NCBI GenBank assembly: GCA_002118135.1
Contig: BDIU01000422.1
Location: forward strand, 1-64,000
Reading direction: 5' to 3'
Length of the DNA stretch: 64,000 nt
From: Trebouxia sp. TZW2008
Lineage: Eukaryota > Chlorophyta > Trebouxiophyceae > Trebouxiales > Trebouxiaceae
In this document: positions 325-64,000 of the stretch, in pieces
How the letters are laid out: the number at the start of each line of letters is the position of its first letter
How positions within the stretch are numbered: the stretch's first letter is position 1
The notes under the pieces: generated by a model
The model's database searches: none
What the model was told of the DNA's origin: nothing
The model's input: only the letters and a program-made list of their open reading frames with translations
Made by a program: the position numbers and the translations under genes

Positions 325-3300
325 ATGGCTGGGCTTGGCCGTGTCCTGTCTCTACAAAGTGGTGTTGTGAGGCATGCTGCTTCTGGGCTAAACAAACTTG
401 GAAGGGTTCCCACCGTCAGCAGCAGGCAAGACGCGGTTGATCATTACAAAAACAACGTGTCGTTATTGTCCACAGCGTCATTTTTCGGCAATTGCACTTG
501 GCGCGGTTCGGGCTGACTGCCGCACTCCACCTGCAGGTCGTTCAAGCGCCCATGCGTCCCGTCGACAGCAGCAAGCGCCTGTCATCTATGTGGTGGACAA
601 TCCAATGCGGTTGCGCGGCGGAAGCGACCCCGCACTGCAGCTGCTGCTGCTCCCGAACGACAACGGTGTTTCGCTGCTCAAAGCGCTGTTGCGACTCGGC
701 AAGCAGAAGCGGGCGACTTTGTCCAGGTAACAAAGCCTCACAAGGTGCATTGTACGCTGCACGACGGCTCGGTCCACGTCGCATGTACGTGTGCAGCAGC
801 AAGCTTGGCTGTCATATGTAGTAGGCTAGTACTGACTTACACTGACATAGTCTGCATGACCCCCTGCTGGGTCCCTAAGACAGTACCACATGTTGATACA
901 CTGATTGAGTATGGGACATGACAGTGTGCAATGAGCAGTGAGCAATGAGCAATCGATGTCTGACTACCAATCAAGCGTTCAGCTGGCTGCTATTTACTGT
1001 AGCATGCTGGAGGAAGATGCTTGAGTGCAATGAGCAATTTGTTACATTCAGCTATTGCATGTACACAGGTGCATTACACCGGCACACTTGATGATGGAGA
1101 AGTCTTTGACAGCAGTCTAGACAGAGAACCTTTGGAGTTCGAAGTGGGCGGCGGGAAAGTCATCCCTGGCTTTGATGACTTAGTCATGGGGCTTTCGGAA
1201 GGGGAGAAGCGTAAACAAATTGTCCCTGCAGAAAAGGCATACGGCAAGTCACTCTTCAAGTGCTGCTTGAGCATTGTGACATCCACTAGCTGAGGCATAC
1301 ATTCGCCTGCAATGTACGTCACAGGACACATACAAGCCTTGTGACACTTTCTGTCCAAGCTCTGCTGTCTGCCTTCATGGATTCGTTTGCTTGCGCCTTT
1401 GAGCAGTAGTGTAGTAATTGTCGATGCTGTGGCTGCAGCATTGCTCCTAGCTGCTTGCATGTCCGTGTTGCTCTATGTTGTATTGAGCGCTCAGCAACAA
1501 AGGCATTGAGCAGCTCACTCTGTAACAGGTGCTTGAGCATTGTGACACCTGCCTGTCTACGCTCTGCTGTCTACCTTCACGCATTTGCTTGCTCATGCCT
1601 TTGGACAGTAGTGCATAAGTTTGTGATGCTGTGGGTGCAGTATTGCTCCTAGCTGCTCCTGTTATGACTGCTCTCTGCTGTCTTGAGTCCTGAGCAAACA
1701 GGCCAGCTTGCATGCTTTGTTTGGTTGTGCCATGCATGGCTGTGCATTGCGCAAACAGCCAATGCGCAGCCAGCAGCGCCCTTGCAAAATGTTGAAAGCC
1801 AGCTGGACAGTTGTTCTCACATCACCTATGCAGCACCCATTGATGCAATGGCAAATTTTGTCCTCATGGTAGCTGTTTTCTCATCACATTATCCTTACCA
1901 GAAACGGGACTGCAGTCAGAGTGCAGTGGTTGGGTCTAAATGCTTTTTCTGTACAACAAGAACAATTTTGTTTTGAGTGTGCTGAAATCCAGCAGTCACA
2001 GTACCCTGACAGCAATGCGGGGTCATGTGATGCAGGGGAATGGAGGAAGGACATGACAGCCAAAATTCCCACAAATGACGCCCCACCAGAGTTGCACAAA
2101 GGAGTGGAAGTACAGCTCTCCAACGGCCTTCAGGCTACAGTGACTGACGTCACCCCTGACCATGTTTTGATTGATGCAAACCATGCATTGGCTGGCAAAG
2201 ATCTCAACTTTGAAGTCGAGCTGGTTAAGCTGCAGAAGGTGTGTTGTCTATGCAACCACACCTCATGTCAAGGCGCGTAGTGTGCCAGAATGGCATCACA
2301 TTCCATCAAAGTATGCCTTGCCTGCTGCAATGCTGCTGTTTTTGAGTCACTTCATGCTGCATAGTTGTCAGATACGCGGACTAGGTCATGCTGTACCTTC
2401 CATATGTCAAAAGCATAAAGGAGCAATCATGATCCCCATGCCATTGTCATTTTGTTGTAATGTCAATGGCATTTAACTGCATCCCTTGCCTTGCCCTGCC
2501 CTGCCCTGCCCTGCCCTGCCCTGCCCTGCCCTGCCCTGCCCCGGCTTGCCTTGCCTCCACTCCCCTCCCCTCCCTTCCCCTTCCCCTCTCAACATTGTTG
2601 CTGCTACCTGCAGACTGAGACCCTGGAGCAAGCTACCTTTGCAGCTGCTTCTGGGGAGCTGAACTGGCATTCTAGAGAGTGCCTGGCGTTGTCAATCAGA
2701 TTGTTTGCTGTTGCTTGCAGACTGAGACCCTGGAGCAAGCTACTTTTGCAGCAGGCTGCTTCTGGGGACCTGAGCTGGCCTTCCAGAGAGTGGCTGGTGT
2801 TGTCAACACCGTAGCAGGATACACAAACGGCGACACCACTGACCCCACATATGATGAAGTATGCTCCGGCACCACAGGGCATGCAGAAGCTGTGCAGGTA
2901 AAGCAATCATTCCATTCTTTTGCTAAAGCCTTTGTGCTTGCAAGCAACCGCTGTACAGTTGCTGACTCACTAATTGAAGTATGCTCCGGAACCACAGGGC
3001 ATGCAGAAGCTGTGCAGGTAAGGCCTTTAGTGCATTCCTTTCCAAATGCGTGAGTCGTCCTGCCTTGAAGAAACACGCTAGACACTTTGTGACCCAGCCA
3101 CAGCATCATTGTGAATGTCAGATGATGTCTGACTTGCAAATCTGCTCTAGCTAATCTCGGGCTGCCTCTTTAGACGAGACTCCCATTATGACGCCTGACG
3201 GCGTAGACTTTTCTTTTTCTTTTCTTTTCTTTCTGCTCAGGTTGTACATGGCCTCAGCGTGGTTGCAGGTCATATGCAACTTAGGATAATAGCAAACTTA

Positions 3301-4597
3301 TCTTAATGTAGGGTTTAGGGTTCATAACTTGGATAATAGCAATGGATAATAGGATTTATCTTAATTGCTGCAGTTGCATTGCTTTTTAGTTGTACATGCC
3401 AACCGCTGCCTTGTGCACAGTCTGATCTATTCATTGGGTTCCTCACTAGTCAGCCATGAGTTTGCCAATTTGACCCAGTCAACTTTTGTATTGCAGCTCA
3501 TAAAGTCAAAAAACATGTGCTGGCTCTCTGGGTCATGTATGAACCCCAGCAGGTGTAGCAATTGCAGCTTAAACAGCCAGACGGCGCTGTGTAGTGATCA
3601 ATTACCCCCTTGCAAGTCAGAAATTCAAGGATGTGTTGTGCGACAGTCAAAATTCCCACTCGCAAGATAGGTTGTCATGTGTCCTTGAGTGACTCTGTGG
3701 TATTATCCAGGTGATGTATGACCCAAAGCAGGTGAATTACAAGCAGCTAGTGGAGGTCTTCCTGCAGAATCATGACCCAACATCGCTGAACAAGCAGGGA
3801 GGCGACCAGGGCACTCAATATCGCTCTGGAATCTACTTTCACAATGATGAGCAGAAACAGATTGCGACCCAGGTCATTGCTGATTCTGCGTCGCAGTATG
3901 CGGTAAGTCCCTGTTGGTAAATCCCAGTCAGCACAAGTCAGCAAAAGTGTGCACCAAAGGAGCTGTCCCAAAGCATGTGCAGTGTGCACAATTCTGGACC
4001 ATTGCTACTCTTTGAGGCTGTCAAGCGTCATGGCAGCGCAGACCTTTCCTCTCTGTTGTCTTGAATGCACAAGACATTTGTGCATGGTGTTCAAAATGAC
4101 TCCATATGACAGCTGGGTGGCTTGTGCACGCAGCACACTGCATTCAGCGGCTGCCCATTGGCTGCTGCCCACACCAGTCATTATCCTTTTTCTATTCATT
4201 GAACAGTTTGCTAGAAAACAAAATACGCAGAGCGACTGTAGGCTTTTTATATCGCTCTGCATTGTAGCGGTAAGTTATCGTGCTTTTCTATGTGGAATCA
4301 TTGTTCAGCACTGCATTCCATCTTGTCAATCAAACGCAAGCAGAGCTTTTGTGGGAATCTGTGTGCATACAATTGTGCAGCCAGCAGTTTTAATGTAACA
4401 ATCAAACTGCATAGTGTCTGCTGACGGAACATGGTTATGGCTGCATGCAGGATCCCATTGTTACTGAAATGGCAGACGTTAAGGGCTGGACTGCAGCTGA
4501 AGGGTATCATCAGCAATACCTGGAACGTGGAGGGAGGTTTGGCAAGCCTCAAAGTGCCAAGAAAGGCTGCGATGACCCCATACGCTGCTATGGATGA
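325..4597 (+). CDS. FKBP-type (SlyD-like) peptidyl-prolyl isomerase fused to methionine sulfoxide reductase A
   Basis: Supported exons are 537-726, 1069-1243, 2036-2238, 2721-2897, 3711-3902 and 4451-4597 (stop TGA). All phases agree. The N-terminal half has the FKBP core ([16 protein letters not shown], then a VIPGFD-like stretch) and continues with a SlyD-like half ending [18 protein letters not shown]. The C-terminal half is MsrA: the catalytic GCFWG motif lies in exon 2721-2897, followed by [20 protein letters not shown] and a plant/algal tail ending CDDPIRCYG. Established roles are prolyl isomerisation/chaperoning and thioredoxin-dependent reduction of methionine-S-sulfoxide; coupling them for repair of oxidised, misfolded protein is inference. 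Intron 1243/1244 uses a GC donor (GCAAGT). The 5' end is uncertain: ATG at 325 is plausible, but the donor joining it to exon 537 (acceptor CTGCAG) was not fixed. The Arg/Ala-rich region before the FKBP domain could be an organelle transit peptide. Confidence 0.85.
1256..1690 (+). repeat. Intronic tandem duplication (about 175 bp x2) next to the FKBP exon edge
   Basis: Positions about 1258-1450 and 1528-1670 are diverged copies. Shared stretches include TGCTTGAGCATTGTGAC, GCTCTGCTGTCT and ATTGCTCCTAGCTGCT. Both lie in the long intron after the FKBP exon. The first copy begins right at the exon/donor boundary. Confidence 0.7.
2484..2545 (+). repeat. (CCCTG)n pentanucleotide microsatellite
   Basis: About ten perfect CCCTG units, followed by a pyrimidine-rich tract, inside the intron between the FKBP and MsrA halves. 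Confidence 0.95.
2600..2705 (+). repeat. Degenerate copy of the MsrA catalytic-exon 5' edge with its acceptor site
   Basis: CTGCAG followed by ACTGAGACCCTGGAGCAAGC repeats the start of the real exon at 2721. It continues for about 85 bp, through the part that encodes GCFWG in the real exon. In this copy GCFWG is lost (the GCAGGCTGCTTC of the real exon is shortened). Confidence 0.85.
2974..3025 (+). repeat. Copy of the MsrA catalytic-exon 3' edge with its donor site
   Basis: GAAGTATGCTCCGG..CCACAGGGCATGCAGAAGCTGTGCAG plus GTAAG repeats the end of exon 2721-2897 with about one change. It lies about 115 bp downstream in the next intron. Confidence 0.9.
3155..3240 (+). repeat. Dispersed hairpin repeat, copy 1
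   Basis: GGCTGCCTC, then TAGAC, then a stem ACGCC (3191-3195) / TGAC loop / GGCGT (3200-3204), then TAGACTTTTCTTTTTC. Other copies lie at 5356-5425, 14915-14952 (minus), 51891-51960 and 57900-57962. Here it sits in an MsrA intron and its T-rich tail runs into a CTGCTCAG that could act as an acceptor. Confidence 0.75.
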
Positions 4598-4631
4598 TCA
4601 ACATTCATGCCTCGAGTTTTTGCCGTCACAG

Positions 4632-4653
4632 ATCCTGTAGATCGCTACAGGAT
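4632..4653 (+). other. Perfect 9-bp hairpin 35 nt after the MsrA stop codon
   Basis: ATCCTGTAG (4632-4640), loop ATCG, CTACAGGAT (4645-4653). It lies in the presumed 3' UTR of the FKBP-MsrA gene, close to the convergent 3' end of TYW1. Its role (3'-end formation, RNA stability) is inference. The rest of 4598-5031 holds nothing recognisable. Confidence 0.7.
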
Positions 4654-5031
4654 TTGTAGCAAAGAATAACCTAGTAACGGCTGCAGACGCCTTGTAGCAT
4701 AGTGACTGTCAACAAGTTTGTCACGCTCTGAGGGGTAATTCAAGGTTCTGAATCAAGATCAAAGCGCTTGACAAGCACCATTCTTACAGCAAGAACCACA
4801 TTGTTGAGAGTGCGGAGCAGCTTGAAAGTAGCTAGGTAAACCAGAGAGTTTTAGACTTCAAGCATGTCAAGCCTTTAGGGCGATTTTGACACCTCTGCTT
4901 TTGGGACTCTGTTAGACTACTTTCAGGAGACAAGTTTCATCAGACGGCAGAACAGCATATGATTCAAAAAAAACAGTTGTTTGCCTCAATTGTAAATCGT
5001 GACAGGAGGGCCTTGACATTGATCATTATAT

Positions 5032-8000
5032 CTACACGCTTTTCTTCTCTGGATGATTTCGGATTTTCTTGAAGCGGGTCTCCTGAGGATCAAAGCCAGC
5101 TTCAATGGCGCCATAGACTGCCCAATCAGGCGTGGGCAGCATGTAATCAGTGGTGACAAATGGCTTTCCAGCAGCTACTAGCTCCTGCAGAAGACAACGC
5201 AGTCATTTTCTGTGTATAGCTGTGCAGCAGATGCATCAGCAATGGTGTGAGCAGTGTCACTGACGTTCTCCTGTCCAGATGACAAGTCTCAACATATCAA
5301 GCATTTGGCAGAAAGACAGCATGCGATTGCAAGTCAACGCAGAGCTGTTGTTTCTGGGCTGCCTCAAGACAGGTGCTCCTGCTATGACTCCTGATGGAGT
5401 AGACTTTATTTTCCTGACTTTCCTGACAGCTTTGAAAGATATCGTAGAGATGACCAGAGCCGACTGCAAACAGCAGGCTCGCTAAACATTGCTACCACTG
5501 TGGATTGGATGCACTTAGCACAGGTAGCATCAACAGCCCTGTGCAAAACCATAGACACCAAGACTCTTGGAGGTTGTCATGATCTATCCAGGTATGCCAC
5601 CGCCCTTCTTTCCCAGAATTTTTCTCGCCTGGCTAATGCAATGCAGCAGGAGTGAGCATGCTCACAAGCCAGCCCATATTCACCGCTACAAGCATGACAT
5701 CTCGCCTCACATGGAGTTTGTTGTAGAGGCGGTGTTGCCTTACCTGAAACTTGTCGTAGTCTATCCAGGTGTGCCACTGCCCATCTTTCCAAAAGCGGTC
5801 TCGCCTGGCCAGCAGAATGCAGCAGGAGTGAGCATGCTCACAAGCTAGCCCATATTCACCGCCACGCGCTTCACAGATGGCTTCTCCAAACGCACATACA
5901 TCAGCATGGTAGGGCACGTTCTGCATGGTCAGGCTGCTTGCCCCGCTGCTGCCGCAGTATGTCACGCCCTTGATCTCTATGAAATCGGGTTTGCCCAGGT
6001 CCAAAAGAGCTGCGTAGTTGGCAATTTCTTCCATGTTCCAGCCTTTGACCAATGTCAGCCTGCATCAGCCACTTGCATTGCAGTCACATTCCAAACATGC
6101 CCGTCACATACAAGACGTCAACGGTACCATAGACACTTTTACAAAGACAGAAGCACAGGTGTTATGTGTTGTGTGATGCAGCTCTATGTCCAACAGAGCA
6201 GCACATACTATACAACACTTGCGAAGCTGTATGCTCCAGCTCTCAACCAGTGTTGGCCAGTGTCAGTGCATCAGTGATCTGGCTTGTCCACACAGATATA
6301 GAAGCCTACATTACATGCTGACAGAGTCACTCAGTGTGTTGTGCTCAACTCTGGTAGAGTAGCATACACAGCACTTTGATGAATTTGGCAGACCCCAGAG
6401 TTGAGCACATTGCGTTTGATCCAATTACAGAAAACAGATTTTGCCATAATTAGTCAGGAAAGCAAGGAAGCAAGCAAGGAAAGCTGACCTGTAGACTGTC
6501 CTCTGGTGCTTGTCCCTGAGCAGTGTGAGGCACTCCCTGAACCGCTCCCAAAAGTCTTTGAACAGCGGCCGGTCGATTGCCTGCAGTCAACATGGCATTG
6601 TTGCCGTAATGGGTGTGCTTGTAGGGGCAATTGCGCAACTTATGCTCTGCCCAATAGGTCCCAACTGCCATGCACCATCTGCTTTTGCACTTGTTCCATA
6701 TTGAGCTGTTCCGTTTTGGGCTGCTGATGCTCTGTCAACCAATCGCCAAGAATACATGATGACGCCAAGTGTGCCTAGTAGCGGCATCAACAAATGCGCG
6801 CACGTCTTGATGGCAGATGCCATTGTAAGCCCACAAAAGTGCGCTGTCAATTGAGCTGCCCAATTACCACTCCCACAAAGGCTTACATTGAGAGTGTCCT
6901 TGGTGGCAGCATTGGCAGACACAAACAGCTGGGTCGCTGGCACCGTTGCTCACATGCAATCACACTTGAAAAGTCTGCACAGCAATGCAAAATGCTTACC
7001 TTGTTTAGGGTGCCTCTGATAGCAGCATAAACAGACACGTACAGCTGGGTGACTGGCACCATCGTTTGCAAACAGTAACACTTGATATTGTCTATATTGA
7101 CTTGCTCAACTTCAGAGTGTCTGTGGTGGCAGCACCAATAGACACATAGAGCTGGGTGAATGGGCCCATTGGCATACCTGAAGAATGTCTCGCATAGCAG
7201 CATCAACAGACACATCAAGCTGGATGACTGTTACTAGGTGGCCCATCCTGTCCAGGAAGTTGGCATTGGTGACAGGAGGATGACCAAGCATGCCACTAAG
7301 AGTGACTTGTTGGTTTGCCCCTGGTTTGCCCCTGGAAAGTGGGCATTGGCTGGCATGTGCTACAATCAGCAATGCTCACCTTAAGAGTGTCTCTGGTAGC
7401 AGCGTCAACAGACACATAAAGCTGGGTGACTGGTACCAGGTGGCGGATTCTGTCTGGGAACTGTGCATTGGTGACCAGGAAGGATGAGATATGGCGCCTA
7501 TGCAGCTCTGTTAGGATGGCATTGATCTCTGGGTACATGATTGGCTCTCCCACCAGAGACAGCGCACAATGCCGCACCTACAATGAAAGTCACATTGTTT
7601 GGAAGGATTTTGATGACCCAAAAGCAAGGGATATTGATGACTCAATGAACAGCCTAAGACGGAAAAGCCATGAAGTACGGCAAAATGGTAAGACCATGCT
7701 CCTGCAGTCAAGATGCTTGTCACTCCCAGCACTTGCTGTTGTCACTCAGGCAGCGTCAGACATGCATTTGACAAGTAAAGCTAGTGTATGGGTTGTAGTG
7801 CCTGCAAATGCTGCTGTCTTTGCACATCATATGAGACAGTGAAGAGCGCATATGGGTTGTGTTGAAGATGTAGGATTTGCAGACATACCTGAAAGCCCTC
7901 CTGCAGCCGAGCTGCTTGTACTCCTGGCACGCCCTTGTACTCATTGATCATCTTGACATGGTTGTCTATTGCGCCATGCACAATGCCCAGAGGGTCATCC

Positions 8001-11000
8001 ATCTTCCAGCGCCACTCTCTTCCCACTGCACACAGAAGTGCAGCTCTTGACAAAACATGCAGCAAAGAATGGAGAAGCAATGCATCGAGCAGATGCAGCC
8101 AAGCACAGCGGCCTCACCAGGGTTGGTAAGTGAGCGCCAGCAGAAGACACACTCCTCAAAACAAGCCAAGGAAGGGGATGAGGCAGATGGGGCACAATAG
8201 CTCACCAGACGTGATGTACAGAAGTTCATGGCCTACCAGGTTTGGTGTCATGGCACTGGCAGAAGACACACTCGAAGGCACAAGCAAGAATTGGATGTCG
8301 CAGATTGTGCAAAGCACAGCAGCCTCACCAGGGCTGGTAGGGTGGCGCCAGCAGAAGACATGTTTGTCAACACAAGCCAAGGAAGGGGATGAACCAGATA
8401 GGGCAAAGCGCAATTGCTCACCAGGGTTGATGTACAGAAGGCCACCATGTTTGGTGTAATGGCGCTAGCAGAAGACACACTCAAAGGCACAAGCAAGAAA
8501 GCGGATGTTGAAGATTGTGCAAAGCACAGCAGCCTCGCCAGGGTTGATGCGGTGGCGCCGGCACAGGACATGTTTGTCAACACAAGCCAGGGAAGGGGAT
8601 GGGGCAGATGGGGCACAACAGCTCAGCAGGGTTGATGTACAGAAGGACATGGGCCACCAGGTTTGGTGTAACGGCACTGTCAGAAGACACACTCAAGCAA
8701 GAAGACACGCTTGTCAACACAAGCCAAGGAAGGGGATGAACCAGATAGGGCAAAGCGCAATAGCTCACCAGGATTGATGTACAAAAGGTCATGGCCCACC
8801 AGGTTTGGTGTAATGCCACTAGCAGAAGACACACTCAAAGGCACAAGCGAGAAAGGGAATATCGTAGATTGTGTTAAGCACAGCAACTCACCAGGGTTGG
8901 TGTGATGACGCCAGCAGAAGACGCACTTGTTGGCACAGGCTAAGGAAGGGGTGGTCTCCATGCAGCGGTGGGACTCGATGCCATAGAAGCTGTGCTTGTA
9001 GCAGCCCCCTCTTCCACGCAGCATGGACTTGGTCCAACGGCACAGCTTCACCCCACTATGTGACCCTGTTCAAACAACAGCATAGACATAGTCATTGTAG
9101 TAACCTCCGCACAATATGATCACTGGTCAAGCCATTCTACTCATCAGTACTGGCCAAGGAAGGGATGGTCTCCATACAGCGTTGGGACTCAATGTCATAG
9201 AAGCTGTGCTTATAGCAGCCCTCTGTGCTCCTAAGCATGGACTTGGCCCAACAGCATAGCTTCACACCACTGTGCGAGCCTGCACAAGCAGCAGCAGCAT
9301 AGACACAGTCATTGGCACAGGCTGAGGAAGGGGGGGTTGATGCCATAGAAGCTGTGCTTGTAAAACCCCGCTGCCACACAGCATGGACTTGGTCCAACAC
9401 CACAGCTTCACTCGCTGTGCGAGCCTGCACACACAGCAGCACAATGCTTGGTCACCGCACTGCAGGGTCAGGGGCACAGTGAAGCCCCCGCCTCAAATCA
9501 ATTAGCATCAAGTCAATCCAGGCCTGCTCCAAGGGTATGCTATGGCCTGATGTTTCATGTGTTAAACATCATGCTCCTAGCAAGCTCAAGACGCTTGTTC
9601 TGTTACTAACTCATCAGTGATGGCACATTTGTCTGACGCCAGCAAGATCAAGCCAAACACAATGGAGGCCTAACATGCTGCTCTCCCAACATTGTCAAGC
9701 TGCTTGTTCGACGTCAGCAAAGTCAAGTCAAATGGCATGGAACCTGACACTGTGCTGACATTGAAAAAACTATTCAGCAGGCCAGTGTAGCCGACATCGA
9801 AAAATCTATTCAGCAGGCCAGCATGGCCGCTGGGCAAGCTACACTGTTCAATCAAGTCAAGCGGCACAGATACCGGACACTGCGCCCACGTCAGATAAAC
9901 CATGAAACTGTGGCAGCGTGGATGCTGAGCGGACCGCACTGCTGAACAGATCCTGTGGCAATGTGCAGCAAACATGGATAAGTGTGAAATTGTACAAGAT
10001 CGAGTCAGACAGCATGGAGACCTGACACTGTACCCACGTCAAGAGAAACCATTCAACAGGGCAGCAACTGAGCCAGCTACAATGCTGAAGAGTTCCTGTT
10101 GACATGTGCAGCAACTGCATTTGAAATGACAGCTATGCCAGATCTGCATGTTGTGCAACTCATGCAGTAAGTTCTGAACTTGCATAAGAATGCTGACAGC
10201 ATGTGATGCAGTGATCAGACAAGACCGTTGACTGTTCACGTGTGCAGCTCATGCCTCAGCTCAGAAGCTGAGCGCATGAGAAATTATGTAATTTCATTTG
10301 ATAAAAGCTGTGAGTCACAAGCAATTCCATATTGGCAGGTCAGATACAGGGGCCAAGTCCCAATGCACCTTGAAAGCAAGACCAGATATATGTCATAAAT
10401 TGCCTGAATCTGATGAACATGCAGCCATTGCCACTGTGTGGCACATGCAATCAGCCTCGTCAAATGGCAAAAGAGCATGGCTCTTCTTGTGATGAACTTG
10501 ACTGACCAATGAGTTTGTAGCCTTGCTTGCTTAAATTAGCTCTGAGTGCAGGCGTCAGCATGTCTCTTACAGCAGCTGTTTCCTGTTGTGATACTGCAGG
10601 CTGACTGGTGCTTGCGGCTTTGCCAGAGGTGACTCTGCCGCCTAAGTCTTCCATGTCAATGTCATCATCACTGCCTGCAGCTTCAGGAGACTGTCCAGAG
10701 TCTGAGCTGCTTTCATCATCTGAGGTTGCATACCCATCAGATGCGGACTCCTGCAGTCAACAGCAGCAGCTTAACCACGCTTGCTCAACTTGCATGATGG
10801 TGCAAGACAAATGGCTTGCTGTGGCAGGAGACTGTCCAGAGTCTCAGGTGCGTTCATTGTCTGAGGTGGCCCAGCTATCAGTTGCAGACTTTGTAACTCA
10901 CAGCAGCAGCTCGCTTTCAGCATCACTGACAGCTGGTTCTGGGGACTTTCCAGAGTCTGAGCTGCTTTCATCATCTAAGATTGCGTAATTGTGGACTCCT

Positions 11001-12799
11001 GCAAACGACAGCAGCAGCTTGAACAGTGCTGTTTGGTGAACATGAGCAGTGCGTCTGAGCCAAAGTGCTTGCTGTTGCATGTCAATTGGTCCTTTGGCTT
11101 TGACAATGGAGAAGCAGCAATCAGCGTCCACGCCTGCTCCTTCAACATCAACGTGGGCATGTACTGTTGAGGACAACTTCTCAGGTGAAGTCAGGCAGAT
11201 GTAAAGCAAGCCTACATCACTTCAACATGTCTATTGCATTGTCTGACTGCCATAACATGCAGTGACAACATTGCAACTCACCTCCAGGCCAAGCACAGGC
11301 TCTACTGGCTCCTTGATGGCATCAGCATCGGCATCAAGGGACTGAGCCTCAAGAATGGCTTGACCCCAGGCTTGAAACTGCTCTGGCATTTTGCCAGAGT
11401 CCTCGTCTCCACTACCAAAGTGTGCCAGCCTGTGGGCGCCTAATTGTGACAGCTGCTTGTCCACCTTCTGCCCAACCTGTTGAGCAACATCAGGCATTGG
11501 TATTTTTTGGCTTGGCACTGTGAGTATGATGCATTGCAAGTATGACAGGAACGAGCAAACGGTATGAACGCCAGCAAACTTGGTGCATGCAAAACACAGT
11601 ATGCACATAGTATGACTGCTAGCAGGTTTGAAGCTGCTACTCACCACTTTGAAGTGGAAGGATGATGCACCGCTCATTTGTGATCTGCCTGCTCACAAAT
11701 CCCTCACAATGAGCACAAACACACAAAGCAGATATGACAGCCACCAACAATACGCAATGCTTCTCCTGCAGAAGAGCGACTGCTGCTCACCACATTGAAG
11801 TGCTCAGTGTAAAGGCTGTTGCCGCAGCCAAACACAGCAAAGGACAAGCTGAAGAGAGGCTCAGCTCCAATACGGAAGTCTGTTGAGCTTTCATCAAGCC
11901 ATTGGCAAAACCACCTGTGCAGGCAATCCTTAGCATGTCAGAATAGGTATGATCGCAACAAGAAAGCAGCAGCAGCAATGCATGTGTTGTCAATGCCTCA
12001 AAAGCAACGATGCTACATTCTTGCAATGTTCAAACGATTTTCAAGTCAATGCTGACAGCAGCATTCGCCATGCACTTTGACCACCTCATGAATGAAGATG
12101 CCGTTTGTGACATGAATGATTGTGCCATTTGTAAAGGTAATGCAGTAGAACAGCGAATACACACATGATTGCTCAAAACATGATCTCTGAGCATTAGCAG
12201 GACCACAGGCTCACTTTGCTGCATCGGGGGGTGAACCTCCTTCATAGGTAGACAGCACCACAAATACCAGATGCTCCTTCCATAGCTGCTCAACCTCATA
12301 GATGCTCAGGTCTACAGCTTGGAGCTCGACCCCGAAAGTGGCTGCTTGCCGCACAAGCTGATTGGCATAGGCAGCTGTTGTGCCCTTCTGTGACCCGTAC
12401 AAGACTTTGCCTGGGAGTTTTGTGCTAGCGGGTGCAGCTGCTTTGCACTCTTTGCCCTTACTGTTTGTTTTGCAGGCGCATTCTGTGCCTTTGTCATCAC
12501 TGTTCTTTTTCGTGGGATCCTGGTCATGCAAAGCCAGATTCAGCACACGGCACGTTATGCACGGACCTTCGGCAGGTCGCGCTTGAACTTCGTACCAACA
12601 GGGACTGCGAGTGATCACCAGAAAGCGCTTTGCCCGACGGCGTGGCGCCCGACGGCGCAGGAACGTCTTTCTTGTCGTCAGGCACGAAGTAATCCAATGC
12701 ATAAGTTACCACCGATCTTAAGACCAGGATCAGTATCGCAAGCGCAGGTCCGACCCAGAGGGGCATGTTCGAGAACCAGCTTTCATTGTCGGTGGTCAT
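5032..12799 (-). CDS. TYW1: tRNA 4-demethylwyosine synthase (TYW1), flavodoxin + radical SAM
   Basis: Exons (5' to 3'): 12799-12596, 12519-12215, 11914-11791, 11476-11282, 10750-10507, 9065-8892, 8025-7889, 7577-7380, 6580-6489, 6059-5744, 5184-5032. They sum to 2142 nt (713 aa plus stop) and every junction phase fits. An N-terminal hydrophobic segment (about residues 14-35, PLWVGPALAILILVL) suggests a membrane anchor. Next come a flavodoxin-like domain with the FMN loop YGSQKGTT (about 108-115) and AVFGCGNSLY, an acidic linker (DDDIDMEDLGG), and the radical-SAM core with C401-X3-C405-X2-C408 (CANKCVFC). TYW1 hallmarks follow: SLVGEPIMYPEINA, VTQLYVSVDAATRDTLK, IDRPLFKDFWERF, FIEIKGVTYCGSS and ACEHAHSCC. 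Known reaction: N1-methylguanosine-37 of tRNA-Phe plus pyruvate gives 4-demethylwyosine, at the ER/cytosol. The introns contain many degenerate copies of exon edges (listed separately). Confidence 0.96.
5356..5425 (+). repeat. Dispersed hairpin repeat, copy 2 (compensated stem)
   Basis: GGGCTGCCTC, AAGACAG, then stem ACTCC (5387-5391) / TGAT / GGAGT (5396-5400), then AGACTTTATTTTCCTG. Relative to copy 1 both arms changed (ACGCC/GGCGT to ACTCC/GGAGT), so pairing is kept. It lies in TYW1 intron 10, antisense to the gene. Confidence 0.75.
5570..5690 (-). repeat. Degenerate copy of TYW1 exon 10 3' edge
   Basis: On the minus strand the copy still reads GEYGLACEHAHSCCIALARR, like the true exon end at 5744-5860, then becomes garbled and runs into a donor-like GT. 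It lies immediately downstream of the real exon in the same intron. Confidence 0.85.
6740..7262 (-). repeat. Array of about five degenerate copies of TYW1 exon 8 3' edge plus donor
   Basis: Minus-strand copies of the segment PVTQLYVSVDAATRDTLK plus donor occur near 7190-7260 (VIQLDVSVDAAMRDILQ), 7110-7165 (shifted frame), 7000-7060 (VPVTQLYVSVYAAIRGTLN), 6885-6945 (ATQLFVSANAATKDTLN) and weakly near 6750-6800. The real edge is 7380-7450. Copies close to the exon are not consistently better preserved than distant ones. Confidence 0.85.
8105..8870 (-). repeat. Array of about seven copies of the TYW1 4Fe-4S exon 3' edge, partly a higher-order repeat
   Basis: Minus-strand copies of SLACANKCVFCWRHHTNPG plus donor recur at about 110-bp spacing: about 8130-8180, 8260-8300, 8345-8395, 8460-8500, 8555-8605, 8675-8730 and 8815-8860. 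The real edge is 8892-8960. A higher-order unit of about 210-220 bp (two half-units) is visible across 8190-8790. Cys-rich copies such as CFEECVFCWRSLTNPGE are still readable, but several lose one or more of the three cluster cysteines. Confidence 0.9.
9130..9450 (-). repeat. Two copies of the TYW1 4Fe-4S exon 5' edge
   Basis: Minus-strand sequence at about 9140-9265 reads GVKLCCWAKSMLRSTEGCYK and on to PSLA, copying exon 9065-8892 from its 5' end. A second, more decayed copy lies at about 9290-9450. Both are upstream of the real exon in the preceding intron and carry an acceptor-like segment. Confidence 0.88.
9690..10110 (-). repeat. Intronic diverged tandem repeats (not exon-derived)
   Basis: Repeated words such as CTGACACTGT.CCCACGTC, ATTCAGCAGGCCAG (9773-9785 and 9808-9820), AATCAAGTCAAG and TGGAGACCTGACACTG occur in the long TYW1 intron 5. 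No match to a TYW1 exon is visible. Confidence 0.6.
10825..11000 (-). repeat. Two copies of TYW1 exon 5 5' edge
   Basis: GGAGACTGTCCAGAGTCT..GAGGT at 10825-10890 and GGGGACTTTCCAGAGTCTGAGCTGCTTTCATCATCT at 10930-10995 repeat the acidic 5' part of the real exon (10676-10750). The second is followed by GTGGACTCCTGCA, a copy of the acceptor region. Confidence 0.88.
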
Positions 12800-13588
12800 G
12801 CCTCGTCAAGTTGGCGAGCCTTCCAAAAGCAACAGTAGTCTCGCAAGCAGCGCTAGTCTTTCCCCACAGCGCGCTCGATCGTAGAAAGTATCAACTGTTA
12901 ACCGGGCTGCAGGCGACGCAAACCCTATTCCACACAAACCAAATTTGGCAGTGATTTTCTGTGAAATACAGCACAGCAGTGCATAGATTGTTCTGACATT
13001 GTGTAGGGCTTGTCATTTAGCAAGACTGAATGGAGATCAGGTGTTGCAGCACATGCATGCAAGCAGTGGCTTTCGTGTATGGCAATGCTTGATTGTGGCA
13101 GCAATGTTGCCAGCACGAGTCATTTGTCAAGAGCTAGACAGCTGTCAGCGACAGCATGACGAGAAACAAGATTGAGTGCATGACCACGTGCTCAGATGCC
13201 TGATCTACTCCAGTGCATTCAGTACAATCAGCAGGGTAAGTACAGTATCTAAGCAGCAGTCTCAGACTATCTCAGCTGAAGCTGCTGTGTGTTGTGTCAA
13301 TCGATTTGCGACTACACTGATAGTACATCTGTACGGGCTGGTGAAGTGTTTGGTGTTCAAACTAGACTGGCAGTACGTCTGAATGGGCTGGTGAAGCGCT
13401 TGGGGCTGCGAAGATCACTGATTCCTGAATCATCTTCATATAGGAAATGCCAGGGTAGTGCTGTCTGGGGATTTACCCACAGCATGCATCATCAAGTGTC
13501 TATAGGTTTGCCACAAGTGACAATCTCTCAGGGGGCTGGTCGAATGATATGGATAGTTGGGCTGCTAGGAGAAAGTAGAGTAAGCTGG
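12800..13588. other. Intergenic region between TYW1 start and the J-protein 1 stop
   Basis: About 790 bp. It should hold the TYW1 promoter (minus strand) and the 3' end of the upstream J-protein gene. No TATA-like or other site can be assigned with confidence and no coding segment is recognised. Confidence 0.5.
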
Positions 13589-52916: not shown

Positions 52917-55900
52917 ATGGCATTCCAAAGCGTGGTGAGGTTTTTCAGCAGGGTCCTGACGGGCTATGAACAGCCTGAGTATTGCGCGCCGGCACCTGAT
53001 CCGGTCCAGGTTGACCCCTCAAAGGCAAGATGCAGGCGTCATCTCCTGCTCTGCGCTTCGATTAAGCCTATGTTTTCTTCTGAGATGGTTGACCGCCTTC
53101 TGTGCAGGGTACCGGCCATGGTGATCCTGAGTTTGGAAAGGTTCGTTTAGAGGAAAGCGGTGAAGTTGACACAGCTGCAGCCCCTCGGGCGACAATCGAG
53201 GTGCCGCTGCAAACGCCTTTGCAGGAAGGACTGCCGCCAGTGAAAGGGTCCAAGGAGCTCACGACTCCCAAGAATGCTACTGCTGCAAGTGCAGAAGATG
53301 TTGTTCTTAGCCAACAAGCTGAAAGCAAAATCCTTGAAAGCCCTCCAAAACACACTGGTGACACGCACAGCTGGAACATGTCTAGAGGTACAAGACAGGT
53401 GAGTGAAGTCTTTGCTGCACAACTTCAGTCCTTTGACCTGCAAAACTTCCGTCTCATGCAGGCTCCAGATCTGTGTCAAGCTGCAGGAAGTCTGACTTGA
53501 GAAACACGACTTGTGTGCGTGCAGTGTGGGGCTAGAGGCGTCCCCGTCATTCATGCTGCTCAGAGCCAGCCTGCAAAGGCAAGCCTTTCCACTGCAACTC
53601 ACAACCCAAAAGCAGCACCCTCCCAGCAGCTGACGGTCAGTATCACTGGCAAGCGTTAGCTCGCTTACAGCCAACCACTCAGCTGTGTGTTGCTGAAATG
53701 ATGCATTGTGTTGCAGGTTGGGCAGGCAATGGGTGTTGCAAGCCCAAAATACCGTGCTCATGATAAGCATGCAGTTAGAGCCAAACTGCAGCATCAGGTA
53801 CGTGGCATACACAGTAGCGCTTGCTTGTGTCTTTCAATCCCAAGCCACTGCCCAGCAACCGTGGTTATGTGTGACCTTTAGTGGGCCAAGAAGCGACAGG
53901 AAGAGAATCTTGAGCGGAAGAAGGGCTTGCAAGAGGATATTGCCCAAATGGATCAGTCAATGACGTCCTGTCGAAACAGGCTCAAGCTGAATCCTGAGGA
54001 TCATGCACTCAGAGCAGAGTACCAGATTCATATCGCTGCCTGGAAGGCTGTCAAGGCTGATCTGCAGAAGGTACATCAGCTATGTTGATGACACAATCAA
54101 TCTGCACCGTCTGAGCTGTTTCAAACTCAGGAACAGCATTCAATCATGCCTAACCCTGCTTTGATTGTCTGACTGCAGTTAGAGAATCCAATGATGGCCA
54201 AGGGGGAACATGTCAAAGAGAAGAAGGCATTGCCCAAAGATCAGGTACACTTGACCTTGTACTCTCTACCGTTGCCATGCTTGCGCTTGGTATAAACGCG
54301 CTATAACCATTGCGACTTATGGGAGTTGCAATGCCGGTTGTGCTGCATCTTACGCTTTTTTGATTTGCAGGCTGTTAAGATTCCAGCTGACTGGGCAAGC
54401 AGCAGGATCAATAGGAAAATCATTGCCCCCGCTTCAGCCAAAGGTGATGATGGCACCAATGGCATTGTTGTTGCCGCCCCCACTCCAATTTCTGCCGCAG
54501 TCCGGCGTCAAAAACAGCATTGCTGCTGCTGCTGCTAAAGCTGCCACAGCAAAAGCGGAGGCGAGCAAAAAGCAGGCAGCTGCTGAGCGCAAAAGGGCTG
54601 CTCAATTGCTCCGCACAGCGGTAAGCCTGCTGCCCAACGACCATTCAGTGTCACCGGAGTGCAGTAGTGTCTTGTTGCATTGATGAACACAGTCAAAAAC
54701 AGCAACAACTGACTCACTCTTGCTCTTGTGTTGCCCATGACGAGACCTTTTTTGTTCTGCTACTGGAAAAAAGCATTTGCTGCATCGACTCCTGCCTGTA
54801 TTGTGACGTATTGGAACTATGTGTGCCTTGTGCAGGCTGAAGTGGGTAGGCAGGAAGCTGCGGCAATGTCAGCCCAAGCTCAGGTGAGCATTTAGGTCTT
54901 GATGTCTGCATTGACCATGCAATTTTACCCTACATGGCAGATTACACATGATCATGTCACTGCAATACACTTGACATGTTCTGAATGAGTTGTCAAGTAC
55001 AGCAAATACGTTGTAAACATGGTGGTGCCATTAGGAATTTTGACAATGCAGTGTATTTGTTCTTTGCAGATTACACATGATCATGCAATACACTTAGTAT
55101 GTGCTGACTGAGATGTCACATACAGCAAACAGAATGATGAATGTGATCATACTATTTGCATGCACTTGATGACTATAGGATCTCAGATGCAAGACTGAAG
55201 CGCTGGAAAGGCAAAGAGAAGCAGCAGCCGCAAAGAAGAGGCAAGAAGAAAAGCTGCGCAAGGTATGTCTTGTTGAGCTTTCTACCATGTGCCTTCAGCT
55301 AAGATCTTGCTTCGGCTACAAACAATGTTCAACAATGTCTGTTACTCTGCAGAAGCAGAATCAGGGGCCCACACTCCAACAGTGTTTGGCTAAGGCAGAT
55401 GAGACGTGGAAGGTAAGCCATTACTTGCATCAAACCAAGGAATCATTGTACATAACACTCAATTTGTAATCTGCAATACGCAGTATGCGTTCTTTGACAG
55501 TATGGATCTTGAAAATGCAATGCGAACTGCAAAATTCCTAATATACTGGTGCCAACACGTTGTGCGCAAGCACTTTGAGGTTTGAATGCGTTGAGCGCAT
55601 TTGCCGCTTGACCACATGGCTTCAAGACATAATGTCAGCGTCTTTTCCTCATGCAGGACCTGATGCGAAAGCGAGAAGCCAGAGCGAGAAGCCAGAGCGT
55701 TCATAGAGGCCAACCCTAGGTATGGCCATTTCAAACTGAAGGCCTCTTCAACTTGCGACTTGCACGCCTTCAGCTCTTGCAGCACTTTGGAATGCATCCA
55801 CAGTTGGATGCGCTGTGTGTGCACTGGAGACAATGCTGCGTTTACTGAGATTGCAGACAGGAGGGGCATGATCCTGTTGCTTTGCGTTCAAATGGGTCTT

Positions 55901-56641: not shown

Positions 56642-57965
56642 TCCCCAGACCACGATACACAGGTAAGCCAAGGCTCAAGGAACGATCTGCCTGGCCATCA
56701 TTCTGACAGCTGATTGATTGGACGCATGCTGGGTTGCTTCCCCGCAAAGCATATTGATTTTGCAACGTAGAGCTTGTGTGTTTCCTGCCACGCTCAAGGT
56801 GTTTGCTGCAGTGTTGTTCAGCAGCAGGGACCTGCACATGACCACACTTGTGTACCGCAAATGTGAATGCCACGTAGACACTTGATACAGACCTTGCCCA
56901 CGGAACAGCAACTAGCCCTCTAGCTCAAAACAATCAAGTTCTGCTGTGTTGCACCTTCCAAGCCATCACGGCCCAAAGTCAAGCCCACATGGTGCAGAAT
57001 TGCTGTTGCCAAGGACAAATTGCCGGCGCTCTTGACAATCAGCCATCTTGTCCAACATAACCAAGTCTTTGAGCATTGTACAAATTGCCCAAGTGTTCAG
57101 GCTGAACTTTGTGCACGCAAGCAGTTAGCTGACTGCATGGTTGCTGCTGCAGGCACGGATTAACATTGACCAAGAACTTCCAAGTAACATCACAAAGCAA
57201 CAGACAAAAGCATCAACATGAGCTCCCGCAAGGAGTGGTTCTCAAACCAGCTGATTCCCTGAACACCACAGCAAATCAAAATGCCATGATGATTGATGGA
57301 CGTAGGCATTCCACAATTGTACAGCAACTGCACAGCAGAAATGCTGTTTTGTATCCTGTTCATGTTTGTCCTGGACAAAGTTGTTAGTTTCTAGTGATCA
57401 GCAGCTAGTCTGACTTGCACTTTCTGTTTGTTGAATATTCACACAGTCTGCTTGATGGATGGTACTGCATATATGACTAGCTGCTTACTCTGTGAGAGCC
57501 CTGCTTGGATAGTGGTAATGCACTGCTGCAAGATTGCCATCTGTCACTGTCTTTTCGACTCAACCCTATCAAACAGAACAGCAGGCACAAATGCAATACA
57601 AAGAGAACAGAAAAACCAGTGCCAACAGACTGTCAATCACAGCCAACCTTATTTGTGCTCAAAACATCCCGCTACAACTGCAGAGCATACGCCAACCGGC
57701 CATGCAAACAAAGCAACTCACGACCCTGCGCTTAATTTCGGGCTACAATCTGCAGCAGCTATCTTGATGCATTCCATTTTGCCTAGGTACAGCCGTGCGT
57801 GCCATTTGGTGCAGCAACAAGCTGAATCACAATCCTGTGCTTAGTTTCAGCCTACAATCTTTAGCAGCTATCTTCTCGCATCCTACTTTGCTTAAGAGCA
57901 ATCTCAGGCTGCCTCTGTAGACAAGGGCTCCCATTTTGACGCCTAACAGTGTAGACTTTTGTTGC
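56642..57965. other. Intergenic region between convergent Smr-like and DnaJ-X genes
   Basis: No gene recognised; open frames up to about 138 codons lack domain or splice support. Near the right end is dispersed hairpin repeat copy 4. TAATTTCGGCTACAATCT-like words recur near 57735 and 57843 (CAACAAGCTG, CAGCAGCTATCTT), suggesting a diverged 100-bp duplication. Confidence 0.4.
57900..57962 (+). repeat. Dispersed hairpin repeat, copy 4 (weakened stem)
   Basis: ATCTCAGGCTGCCTCTGTAGACAAGGGCTCCCATTTTG, then ACGCC (57939-57943) / TAAC / AGTGT, then AGACTTTTG. It closely matches copy 1 over about 55 bp, but the stem has one mismatch and one G-T pair. It lies directly beyond the DnaJ-X stop codon, antisense to that gene. 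Confidence 0.75.
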
Positions 57966-60900
57966 TTAAGCATAGCCATGCGTGCCGTTTGCGGCAGCAG
58001 CAGGCGCCTGATGCTGTTGCTGAATGGACTTGGCAGCCGCACTGAAAATGGATCCTAGCTTCTTGACTGCTTTCGCTCGAGCATGCAGCTGTTTCTTGCC
58101 AAGGCCTTGCTCATGCAACACCTGCAGTCAATCAGCCCAAGGTAAGCAACAGCCAACTGCAGTGTCTCAAATCAACAGGTTGGCATAATTGATGCGAGAG
58201 CTGAGCATTGTAACCCAACATTGCATGCAGGCAGATTGAAACAAAACAGTAGAAGGGGAATACCAGCAGGAAGCCATTACCTTGTCCAAAACCTGTGTCA
58301 GTGTGCCTTCAATATCAGCTACATTCAGCTTCCATAAGTTCTCCATGATCTGTCCCTGCTTAGCTTCAAAGAACGCTGCTGCGCTGTCCTCTGACAGTTG
58401 CCCAGCCTGCAGGTTCCTCTCAGCTTCCTGCTGGATGGTCATCATGCCCACCGTTCCCACCGCTGCCCCCACAGCTGTCTTCACAGAGTGCCCTTGTTGC
58501 CTAACCCACTCTGAGGCAAAAGGTAGCCCCAGAAACTTTGGATCCCAGCCAAGTACGAGCCCTGCTCTGTGCTCATACATGTACCTGAACAAACAGGCTG
58601 TTGTGACATTCAGCCCATAACAAGGCCTGTTCTGTGCTCATATGTAGCTGTAACAGCAAGCTGCCGCAAAAGCAGCACAACACAAGGCCAGCTCTGTGCT
58701 TGTACATGTGCCTGTAAAAGCAGAGTGTAGTGAGACTCCAGAATAAGGCCTGTTCTGTGCTCATAGATGTGTCTGTGACAATAGGCTGTGATGCAAGTCA
58801 GCCCAGAACAAGGCCTGCTCTGTGCTCATACGTGTACTTGTAACCGCAAAGTGTGGTGAGATTCTGTGCTCATGCATGTAGCTGTAACAGCAGGCTGTCG
58901 TAAAATCAGCCCATGTAGTTTGGAACCCAGCCAAAGACAAGCCCCGCGCTATGCTCGTACATGTACCTGTAACAGCAGCTTTTGATGAGATTCAGTCCAG
59001 AAGAAGGTCTGTTCTGTGCTCATACATATATCAATAACAAATGGCTGTGACAAACCATTCTAGCCGTTCTGTGCTCATACATTTTCCTACAACAGCAGGC
59101 TGTGCACATGGACACCATGGGCATGACACAACGCTGACTAATGAGCTGTCAAACTGAACTTCCTTAGGAACATGAATGAACATGCTCAACATGAGTGATT
59201 CTTGTCTGAATGCCTGACCAGGTTCAGTGTTGTGTCATGATGACTAGCTCAGATGGCTGCATAGCTCCTGCTATACCATTCATGCTGATTGTACAGCAGC
59301 TTTGCTTGCATCAATTGCAGCCTGCTGTGTCAAACAAAAAGACAACATGACCGACGTCACTGCAACACGCATCCGCAGCTTTCAAGGCCATAGTTAGCAT
59401 GTGCTCCAGTCATTCCTTCATGTCATTATGAACGTGGGCTAGGCAGGCTCAGCAGGCCCAACTAGGTATGTACAGAAGCAATCAACTGTCTCCAACCAGT
59501 TTGATCATGTGCTAACCTACACCAATTATATTGGACATGAAGGGCGGAGAGCAGCTCCACTGCTGAGCATGCACAGGAGGTTATGCATTGTGCCTGACTG
59601 CATGAAACATCAGGACTGTCGCCCACGCAAGGGAAGTTTCAAAGGTGACCAATGCTGTTGCAGTGATTGTGGTGGTTGCAAGGATGTACAGACAAATGTG
59701 AACAATTCCCGCAGTCAATTTGGCCCGACACAACTGCTGAGGCCTGCATCATTCGCAATTTACGACATCAACATCAACAAACGATTCCCGCAGCGTACTT
59801 AGGCAGAGCATTACCCAATGGTGTGCAAAAAGGTTTTCCCAGACGCCGCTTTGGCCAGGCGCTGTGCTTCCTGTGATGCACTGTGCACAAAGGCATCCTT
59901 GTCACCATGACAATATGGCTCTATCCTGGCAATCAAGTTGGCTTGCAGCTTGTGCTCTCGCTCCTATGGACAAGGCGAGATCTCCAATTCAGTGACAGAG
60001 GCTCTTGTGCTGTCCCAAATATCCAATCAAGTATGCAGAAAAGTCGACACGCGACAGCAAAGTTATGTGTTCAACAAGGCGCTTGGAAGAAGTTTGGTCT
60101 TGCAAAGGTGGCACATGTCAGCACTGTCCGACACAAGATGCTGGTTGCACGGAATGTGTCAAGGTGGTGCTGAGATAGGACGGCCTTTGCAGTAGGTCCG
60201 CTCATAAGCAGCTGTACAGCATTGGCTGCAGTGATGCTGCTGCAAAGGGCATAACACAAAGCAATTGCAGCACATGCAAAGGAAGGCAGGCACTGGCAAA
60301 GCTCACAACCTGCGTGGCCTGCTTTCACTGGGTCTGATAAGGGAGTGAGATGAGGTGAAATCTGATTCAAGCTATTCAACAACAGCATTGGCTGCAGGAA
60401 AGTTGCCAAAGAACTTGTACGCTCAGAGCAAGTGCTGCAGGTTTAAAGCAAGGCAGACTTTGCAGATACTCACCACTTGCATGGCCTGTAGTTTCTGTCT
60501 GACTTGCTGCTGGTTTGGCTCAGTAGAGATGCCAGCTAGCATTGCCAATTGGAGCTGTCCAATGTATTCCTCAAAAGCATCACTGCCAAAGACCATGCCA
60601 AAGACCATTGTGGCGTCCAACATCTGCCCTTCTTGCATGCTTGCTTTGCCATAGCTATCATACCTGCAAGGCAAGCAGCCAGTCTGTGCATGGAATGGCC
60701 ACTAGATCACAGCTGCTGAACAGTTTTTGGCATGCATTTTTGGTTGATAGCAGTCTGATTTGTGCGCACTGTTCTCTTTTAGCTGGGTCACTCAGCACTT
60801 GATATGCCTGTCCCAGCGCCTGAAATTTGGCAGCGGCCTCAGGATCGTTCGGGTTTCTGTCTGGATGCACCTGTCAAATGCCATGTCATCAGTGTAAGCC

Positions 60901-63164: not shown

Positions 63165-64000
63165 TCAATATAGCTGAATGATTGATTGGGCAGGAATCGG
63201 CACATACTCATTCCTCAGACGCACATATGGGTTGACAGCCTCAGTATATTGCCAGAACCTGACTGCGTCCCGCTTTGAAAGGTTTTCCGTATTGTCTACC
63301 ATAAGCTGTTGCTTTGAAGGAAGGCCCCTTTGCTGTGCAAGGAAATGTACCAAGTCTTCTGCCAAGGGTGTTGTTGGACTGCAATGAATCAGCATCTGTG
63401 CATGCTGCTCCACTGTTAGAATCTGCACAGCAACAGAATAGAATCAGCTTTGGAATGTTATGCAGACCAATCTCCTGCTAAGGGTGTCGTTGGACTGCAA
63501 TGAATCAGCATCTGTGCGTGCTGCTCCACTGTTGGGATCTACACAGCAACAGAATCCAATCAGCTTTGGCATCCTGTGCAGACAGAATGCTGCAAAAACA
63601 AGAAATCAGACACAAGAATCGAACAGTACACCTCATTCTTTGCTGAGACATGACTCACCCCGTAGTAAATACTCCAAGTATACTTGTACAGAAGCTCATA
63701 TGCTTCTGCAGCATTGTTTCTGAGCCTGGATCCAATGCTTGTCAGCGTTGTGGCTTCAGTGATTGGGTTCGCATCCTGCTTTTCCAAGTCAGTTATCAAT
63801 GCAGCTTTCTGTCTGTTCAGCTCCCGATGCTCGAGAAGGTACACTCTTCGTATGAATAGCAGGTCCTCAATTTGGCCATCGCATAAGCAGAGCCGCGCCT
63901 GGCCAACACCAAGAACCATCTCAGTCACAGATTGAAATGTATTGGTGCAGCTTTCTGTCTGTTCAGCTCCCAAAGCTCAAGAAAATACACCCTACGTATG
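63165..64000 (-). CDS. C-terminal part of an uncharacterised helical protein (partial, runs off the window)
   Basis: Two exons are clear. One ends at 63659 (donor GTGAGT) and encodes a charged helical stretch (YLLEHRELNRQKAALITDLE, then NAAEAYELLYKYTWSIYYG). The last, 63422-63165, runs ILTVEQHAQMLIHCSPTTPL to NEYVPIPAQSIIQLY and a stop; phase fits. The first exon's left (5') boundary, around 63850-63970, was not fixed and the gene begins beyond the window. The pattern of a helical dimer-like segment followed by a TVEQHA.ML-type helix is reminiscent of the region after the basic zipper in algal bZIP-like factors, but no basic region is in view, so this is only a suggestion. Confidence 0.6.
63356..63583 (-). 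repeat. 112-bp tandem duplication across the last exon's 5' edge
   Basis: 63356-63467 and 63470-63583 share GTTGGACTGCAATGAATCAGCATCTGTG..TGCTGCTCCACTGTT..ATCT.CACAGCAACAGAAT and adjoining intron. The lower copy spans the real acceptor at 63423; the upper is an exon-like copy inside the intron. Confidence 0.92.
63945..64000 (-). repeat. Copy of part of the penultimate exon at the window edge
   Basis: TGCAGCTTTCTGTCTGTTCAGCTCCCAAAGCTCAAGAAAATACAC at 63949-63993 copies 63799-63843 (TGCAGCTTTCTGTCTGTTCAGCTCCCGATGCTCGAGAAGGTACAC). It continues to the edge of the window. Confidence 0.88.

Follow-up and report, generated by a model that had tools for sequence, protein, structure and literature searches.

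Local copies of exon edges in the introns of a Trebouxia contig, probably for the most part relics of untargeted short duplications

The stretch considered here, bases 1-64000 of the 69,165-base contig C398 of Trebouxia sp. TZW2008 (hereafter the window), carries genes for which an initial annotation, made from the sequence, had described introns seeded with degenerate copies of the edges of neighbouring exons. Searched against Pfam, six of nine gene models scored over the cut-off (MsrA in two pieces, the TYW1 C-terminus, flavodoxin, TPR and DnaJ-X), one gave a Radical_SAM match below it and two had no match; the gene names used here rest on these matches and on the naming in that annotation. 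All exon edges are predictions, of a gene finder written for, and trained on, the sequence itself. The splice signals that it learned are sharp (donor CAG/GTGAG-like, acceptor TGCAG/G), and a TGCAG acceptor consensus is typical of green algae. The wider sample comprises seven contigs, window included, with 279 kb in total (279,165 bases) out of a 68.5-Mb assembly made up of 527 contigs, and holds 225 strong exons, by which we mean, unless stated otherwise, exons with a coding score of at least 8. The genome gives 47 matches to Chloroa_b-bind (PF00504), and the organism is therefore photosynthetic.

Compared with itself by BLAST (E<=1e-3), the window gave 61 matches, 49 of them less than 3 kb apart, and a laxer scan at offsets below 600 returned 76 pairs at a raw score of at least 32 and 64 at a raw score of at least 36; each of ten shuffles of the window yielded 0 such near pairs. 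The 70 exons with a coding score of at least 5 have 140 ends, of which 16 are spanned by a match at the higher of these scores, and five further marks stop at most 15 bp inside the edge. Six of these 21 edge marks (five of the 16 spanned ends) fall in a tandem array at 8200-8635 with doubtful "exons"; with the array set aside, 11 spanned and 4 nearly reached edges are left. The clear cases are the MsrA exon 2721-2897 at both edges, TYW1 7380 (with four copies), 9424, 10750, DnaJ-X 58580 and, within the long gene at 25.1-43.9 kb, the edges 30420, 31905 and 34572, which are spanned, and 26563 and 43289, which are nearly reached. The TYW1 edge 5744 is nearly reached; edge 51178 and the right-edge gene depend on weaker exons (scores 7 and 2). 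The degenerate same-strand copies within a few hundred bp of the original, in several unrelated genes and on both strands, are therefore as first described, and the number of edges comes close to the 16 or more given for them, although the set of edges differs. The J-protein edges, taken here as those of genes at 11-25 kb, were not recovered: that region gave only three pairs at a raw score of at least 34, and none at an exon score of at least 8.

Such pairs extend well beyond these genes. Across the seven contigs, matches less than 1 kb apart number 283 in direct orientation vs 4 inverted, and seven shuffled stretches gave 0 near matches. The direct pairs are short and lie close to their source (offset median 202 bp, 5-95% range 96-682; length median 102 bp), and direct pairs further apart are few, except in contigs C336 and C392. 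Duplicate clusters cover 2.5-24.9% of each stretch, and 50,230 of the 279,165 bases (~18%) overall. Once redundancy is removed, 200 events remain, with offsets that peak at 140-180 bp; 67 of them involve no exon of score 8 or more. Near pairs occur in all seven contigs, with identity quartiles of 75-84%. Young local duplications are nearly absent, since just two of the 200 events show less than 5% divergence, and this scarcity reflects either an old burst or the collapse of young tandem copies in the assembly. As a separate observation, the difference within non-coding duplicate pairs is 0.357 at CpG sites vs 0.16-0.18 at other sites, a twofold divergence that suggests CpG methylation in this genome.

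The plainest single case lies at the acceptor of the MsrA exon, where 2594-2695 and 2700-2806 form a near-perfect tandem (102 aligned columns, 4-base spacer); here, at least, junction-spanning tandem duplication, one of the causes proposed at the outset, is borne out. The copy of the donor of the same exon (2975-3049) differs from it by 2% over the 43 columns of its exon part and by 31% over the 32 columns of its intron part. The four copies beside TYW1 exon 7380-7577 are more unlike each other than they are unlike the exon, their flanks are near random, and the stretch that holds them (6878-7283) matches only the adjacent exon in the whole genome. Similarly, in 21 pairs from exons with several copies, identity is 0.78 between copies and 0.83 between exon and copy, on average a star around the exon, and the outer flanks of the same pairs stand at 0.57 between copies and 0.56 between exon and copy, where random sequence gives about 0.5; in a few pairs the copies resemble each other more than they do the exon and are copies of copies. 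Outside the window, a predicted gene at C392:22717-26434 (2717-6434 in the coordinates of locus L016), which we take to resemble a PhoD-type phosphatase, has two exons (locus coordinates 3250-3399 and 4152-4336), each with decayed copies of both edges.

Alignments of the 91 exon/non-coding events stop inside the exon in 15 cases, end 0-12 bp past the edge in 31 and run further in 45, so that the earlier claim of copies crossing the splice site is borne out only in part. At most one exon edge is reached in 89 of the 91, and both edges in two. It had also been stated that copies of 3' edges follow the exon and copies of 5' edges precede it; this is forced by geometry, a copy in the adjoining intron having no other place to be.

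To assess whether exon edges are preferred, the 200 events were compared with expectations from a rolled exon map. A strong-exon edge is paired with non-coding DNA in 48 events vs 25.4 expected and an exon interior with non-coding DNA in 43 vs 22.6, and pairs within non-coding DNA are depleted (67 vs 108.5). The picture is the same with an exon cut-off of 5 (edge 47 vs 31.5, interior 44 vs 25.0) or 12 (edge 39 vs 18.8, interior 35 vs 20.1). Exons are over-represented, and their interiors about as strongly as their edges. Events with any edge-spanning copy number 64 vs 49.7 ± 6.4 (p 0.016); with redundancy kept and all predicted exons counted, junction-spanning pairs number 102 vs 110 ± 10. Two of these counts favour the initial annotation, as does the simulated shortfall of exon-involving events described below: the number of distinct edges covered (127 vs 106.7 ± 11.6, p 0.05, all predicted exons) and, among pairs of at least 85% identity, the 31 edge-spanning cases vs 18.7 expected. 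With exons masked, coverage of non-coding DNA is 0.037, 0.042 and 0.047 within the first 60 bp from an edge and 0.109-0.114 beyond 200 bp, a dip that is partly expected, as matches cut by the mask are more easily missed, but coverage does not peak at the edges. With exons unmasked, coverage reaches 0.182 in the first 15 bp, because exon-anchored matches extend into the splice site. The local copies are real and not due to chance, but comparison with the exon map does not single out edges over exon interiors, and a process that regularly chooses exon-intron junctions, which was the heart of the original proposal, is not supported.

We consider it probable, at roughly 0.65, that untargeted short local duplication followed by one-sided decay accounts for most of the pattern. 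Relics of direct local duplications, with a typical offset of 100-200 bp, are found in large number in exons, introns and intergenic DNA alike, and the general process behind them would be slippage during replication, template switching or repair synthesis templated by sequence close by. A duplication that spans a splice site would be tolerated, because it leaves the exon and its outer splice site unharmed and the added piece is removed together with the intron, and many duplications lying wholly inside an exon would be removed. From then on the exon appears to change slowly while the copy drifts, and intron/intron pairs appear to drift on both sides. Similarity would therefore last longest, and often end, at the exon plus a few splice-site bases, which would create the appearance of purposeful exon-edge copying. 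A minority of the intact copies may be, or may once have been, real coding pieces of exons.

Simulations in which uniform tandem duplications were placed on the real exon map, except where they would fall within an exon or cross two edges, and then left to drift were run under ten settings, four of them calibrated. Neutral substitution with small indels alone produced too little truncation at splice edges and was discarded as an explanation. The best-matched setting resembles the observed non-coding pairs closely (10-90% divergence 0.102-0.241 vs 0.109-0.228 observed; median ratio of aligned length to offset 0.68 vs 0.68) and gives truncation at the splice edge in 31%, 52% and 60% of cases by divergence class, where 12 of 23, 16 of 32 and 4 of 13 are observed. 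Under this model the splice-edge truncation seems roughly explained by neutral decay; the twofold excess of exon-involving events does not.

That excess is one of several results that weigh against untargeted duplication with one-sided decay. For each non-coding event the simulations yield 0.36-0.53 exon-involving ones over the ten settings and 0.53 in the best-matched one; the observed ratio is 91 to 67 and, at offsets below 350, 70 to 57 (1.23), an approximately 2-fold excess. Removal of the likely coding copies brings the ratio, by rough arithmetic, to ~0.9, still 1.7-fold over 0.53, and counted by clusters there are 59 of exon with non-coding DNA, 38 of non-coding DNA only and 19 of exon with exon only. 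What is left over could come from missed exons, from copy families counted several times, from a skewed age distribution or from a real bias. The least diverged class, moreover, is truncated in 52% of cases vs 19-38% across the four calibrated settings, and the most diverged class less often than simulated. Nor is one-sided decay clear in paired comparison, since among the 28 events that have at least 25 exon columns and at least 25 intron columns divergence is 0.176 in the intron part and 0.157 in the exon part (p 0.42), with the intron the more diverged, as expected, in 16. Pairs of exon with exon show no overall depletion (26 vs 19.1 expected; at 85% identity or more, 2 vs 5.2), so that these counts do not show the supposed purging from exons. 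Only four pairs of at least 88% identity have an aligned length near the offset, and low divergence does not accompany full tandem alignment; the copies have diverged too far for breakpoint hallmarks of strand-annealing repair, such as microhomology or chimaeric inserts, to be read from them. Finally, the copies contain 24 in-frame stops, vs up to 40.6 if all changes were random and in the copy.

The coding state of the copies divides them. Among the 77 copies that include 40 or more exon columns, 42 have neither a frameshift nor a stop, where 29.7 would be expected neutrally, and 35 are broken. In the broken copies the ratio of mismatch at codon position 3 to that at position 2 is 1.67, with 135 synonymous and 209 nonsynonymous changes, as expected for drift against a constrained exon; in the intact ones the ratio is 2.58, with 155 synonymous and 129 nonsynonymous changes, the neutral synonymous fraction being 0.27. 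Overall mismatch between exon and copy is 0.151, 0.109 and 0.228 by codon position, and codon-position mutability, expected at 0.185, 0.185 and 0.186, was rejected as the cause of the third-position excess. It was likewise rejected that all copies are functional exons, because 40 of the 47 indels that the copies carry are frameshifts and the broken copies look neutral, although the intact subset does not. Changes polarised to the copy lineage amount to 0.122, 0.078 and 0.154 by codon position (53 synonymous, 62 nonsynonymous), a test that points the same way but can be inflated by synonymous change in the exon lineage. About half of the copies appear to be plain relics, and among the intact ones a part resemble coding sequence.

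These excesses can be read in another way, which we regard as tentative and on balance doubtful: that introns receive, or keep, copies of neighbouring exon-containing segments at about double the rate for other DNA, part of them in frame, beyond what neutral relics would leave. If true, copies of parts of exons, with splice sites at hand, would be supplied continually, either through a duplication bias linked to transcription or splicing or through selection on decoy or alternative exon pieces. Damage of the former kind (R-loops, nicks at paused polymerase) might make junctions hot spots of duplication, and would fit the exon-involving excess over the calibrated simulations, the 31 alignments that end just past a splice site and the surplus of edge-spanning pairs of high identity, as well as the flank beyond the alignment end, which in 37 events ending near an edge scores 2.1 vs 1.6 for random pairing, a result that the way in which local-alignment ends are chosen favours. 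We nevertheless think junction-directed damage unlikely, since exon-interior matches are equally enriched, masked-exon coverage drops and does not rise toward the edges, and the splice-edge truncation would in good part follow from one-sided decay. Rather unlikely, too, is selection that retains the copies as splicing decoys or alternative exon pieces. It would account for the surplus of intact copies, for their synonymous changes and for the polarised codon pattern; yet the 35 broken, neutral-looking copies need no decoy selection, nearly all alignments reach one exon edge at most, and synonymous change of the exon lineage leaks into the polarised test.

Two further explanations concern the nature of the repeats themselves. 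Stitching of alternative haplotypes or unresolved repeats in tandem during assembly, to which the 242 and 256 N in the C2 and C3 stretches might point, should yield near-identical copies, and given the identities of the near pairs, their presence in every contig and the two events below 5% divergence we hold it to be very improbable. Introners or other dispersed intron-generating elements would agree with the presence of repeats in introns here, but are highly improbable as the source: three stretches (the copy-bearing TYW1 intron, the array at 8069-8960, which is unique in the genome, and one spacer) matched their own locus only when searched against the 68.5-Mb genome. The copies and arrays of the window are collected in Table 1, together with exon-free local duplications of the same kind.

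Table 1. Exon-edge copies, tandem arrays and exon-free local duplications in the window
Feature	Positions	Strand	Details
Copy of 5' edge (acceptor side), MsrA exon 2721-2897	2594-2695	+	partner 2700-2806, offset 106, 86%; exon matches PMSR
Copy of 3' edge (donor side), MsrA exon 2721-2897	2975-3049	+	partner 2855-2929, 85%
Copy of donor-side part, TYW1 exon 5744-6059	5574-5689	-	stops 7 bp inside edge; partner 5751-5865, 84%; Wyosine_form
Four decayed donor-edge copies, TYW1 exon 7380-7577	6878-6944, 6991-7061, 7103-7163, 7176-7283	-	
Copy of part of exon 9137-9424	8935-9097	-	partners 9149-9314 and, for 8977-9082, 9339-9441
Two acceptor-edge copies, exon 10571-10750	10825-10911, 10917-11020	-	
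34-bp copy from 15 bp inside exon 26563-26740	26394-26427	+	partner 26578-26611, 94%
Acceptor-edge copies, exon 30420-30582	within 30025-30365: 30094-30124; 30258-30365	+	30258-30365 in frame, possibly itself an exon
5'-edge copy, predicted exon 31905-32222	31786-31839	+	partner 31895-31948, 80%
3'-edge copy, exon 34292-34572	34746-34830	+	partner 34528-34610, 74%
Copy of 3' part, exon 43107-43289	43411-43453	+	stops 7 bp inside edge; partner 43240-43282, 88%
Acceptor-edge copy, exon 49943-50189	50278-50315	-	10 exon columns only; partner 50180-50217, 84%
Copy of start of weaker predicted exon 51077-51178 (score 7)	51242-51363	-	partner 51077-51198, 84%
Array of ~65-bp units with 5' edge of DnaJ-X exon 58281-58580	58537-59050	-	array as a whole 58537-59104, 4.7 copies, 68%
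117-bp tandem duplication over end of weak predicted exon (score 2), right-edge gene	63349-63583	-	88%
210-bp tandem array, apparently between predicted TYW1 exons	8069-8960		2.8 copies, 81%; weak exons called inside
Exon-free local duplication, same kind, control case	1233-1697	.	
Exon-free local duplication	54937-55129	.	others: 9851-10114, 42188-42323, 57718-57894

The window also contains similarities over longer distances. A tandem gene pair, 13559-16704 and 19380-22525, is recognisable from six matching blocks of 70-84% about 5.8 kb apart in the self-match and lends itself to the dating of changes in introns. Self-comparison further shows a dispersed repeat in an inverted pair (25371-25457 and 59438-59524; 83%, 34 kb apart), a dispersed short direct family of three copies (3153-3222, 51886-51953 and 57900-57963) and two single pairs, 3201-3232 with 14909-14938 (inverted) and 10413-10473 with 18321-18381.

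If untargeted duplication with one-sided decay is the right account, random short duplications can mimic deliberate exon-edge copying, because conserved exons preserve the evidence after introns have lost it, and surveys that look for intron gain or for decoy exons would need a control for such exon-anchored visibility. Moreover, the density of relics makes this alga useful for measuring short duplication, and the unexplained twofold excess of exon-involving events, with some of the copies seemingly coding, gives a testable clue to the origin of partial exons.

Among known systems, tandem exon duplication also leaves a local copy of an exon with its splice site, but it differs in that a whole exon with both edges appears in just two alignments here and that nearly half of the copies assessed for coding are broken. 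Local, short duplicate pairs like the present ones are said to have been treated by Thomas et al. in 2004, as short paired duplications or doublets, and by Achaz et al. in 2001, as close direct repeats; to our knowledge, neither treats the pairs as relics kept visible by exon constraint. A search of titles and the openings of abstracts turned up no description of exon-edge copies in introns as a habit of a genome, which is no proof of absence. Intron gain by AGGT tandem duplication is documented for a potato RdRp gene (PMC4974935) and for Drosophila (PMC2891723). In the potato gene, a single instance of junction-spanning tandem duplication, the duplication ran over an intron-exon boundary and the copy kept the branch site, the tract and the 3' splice site. 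Such a duplication yields a new spliced intron, whereas the copies described here sit in an existing predicted intron and decay, and the AGGT arrangement, in which the copies bound the new intron and the offset equals the intron length, was not seen in the alignments that we read by eye. In vertebrates, repair-mediated duplication of proximal DNA (Pace et al., 2009; PMC2671141) is the nearest described process; its proximal class has a mean length of 162 bp, a median of 147 and a maximum of 619, with the donor within 5 kb. These, too, are short local copies, and the pieces copied include parts of exons as well as splice sites; unlike those in our survey, however, they were identified as insertions within transposons, with any copy within 50 bp left out, and one copied exon is inverted, whereas 283 of the 287 near matches here are direct. 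It is this strong direct orientation, together with the exon-anchored visibility of the copies, that is distinctive of the present case.

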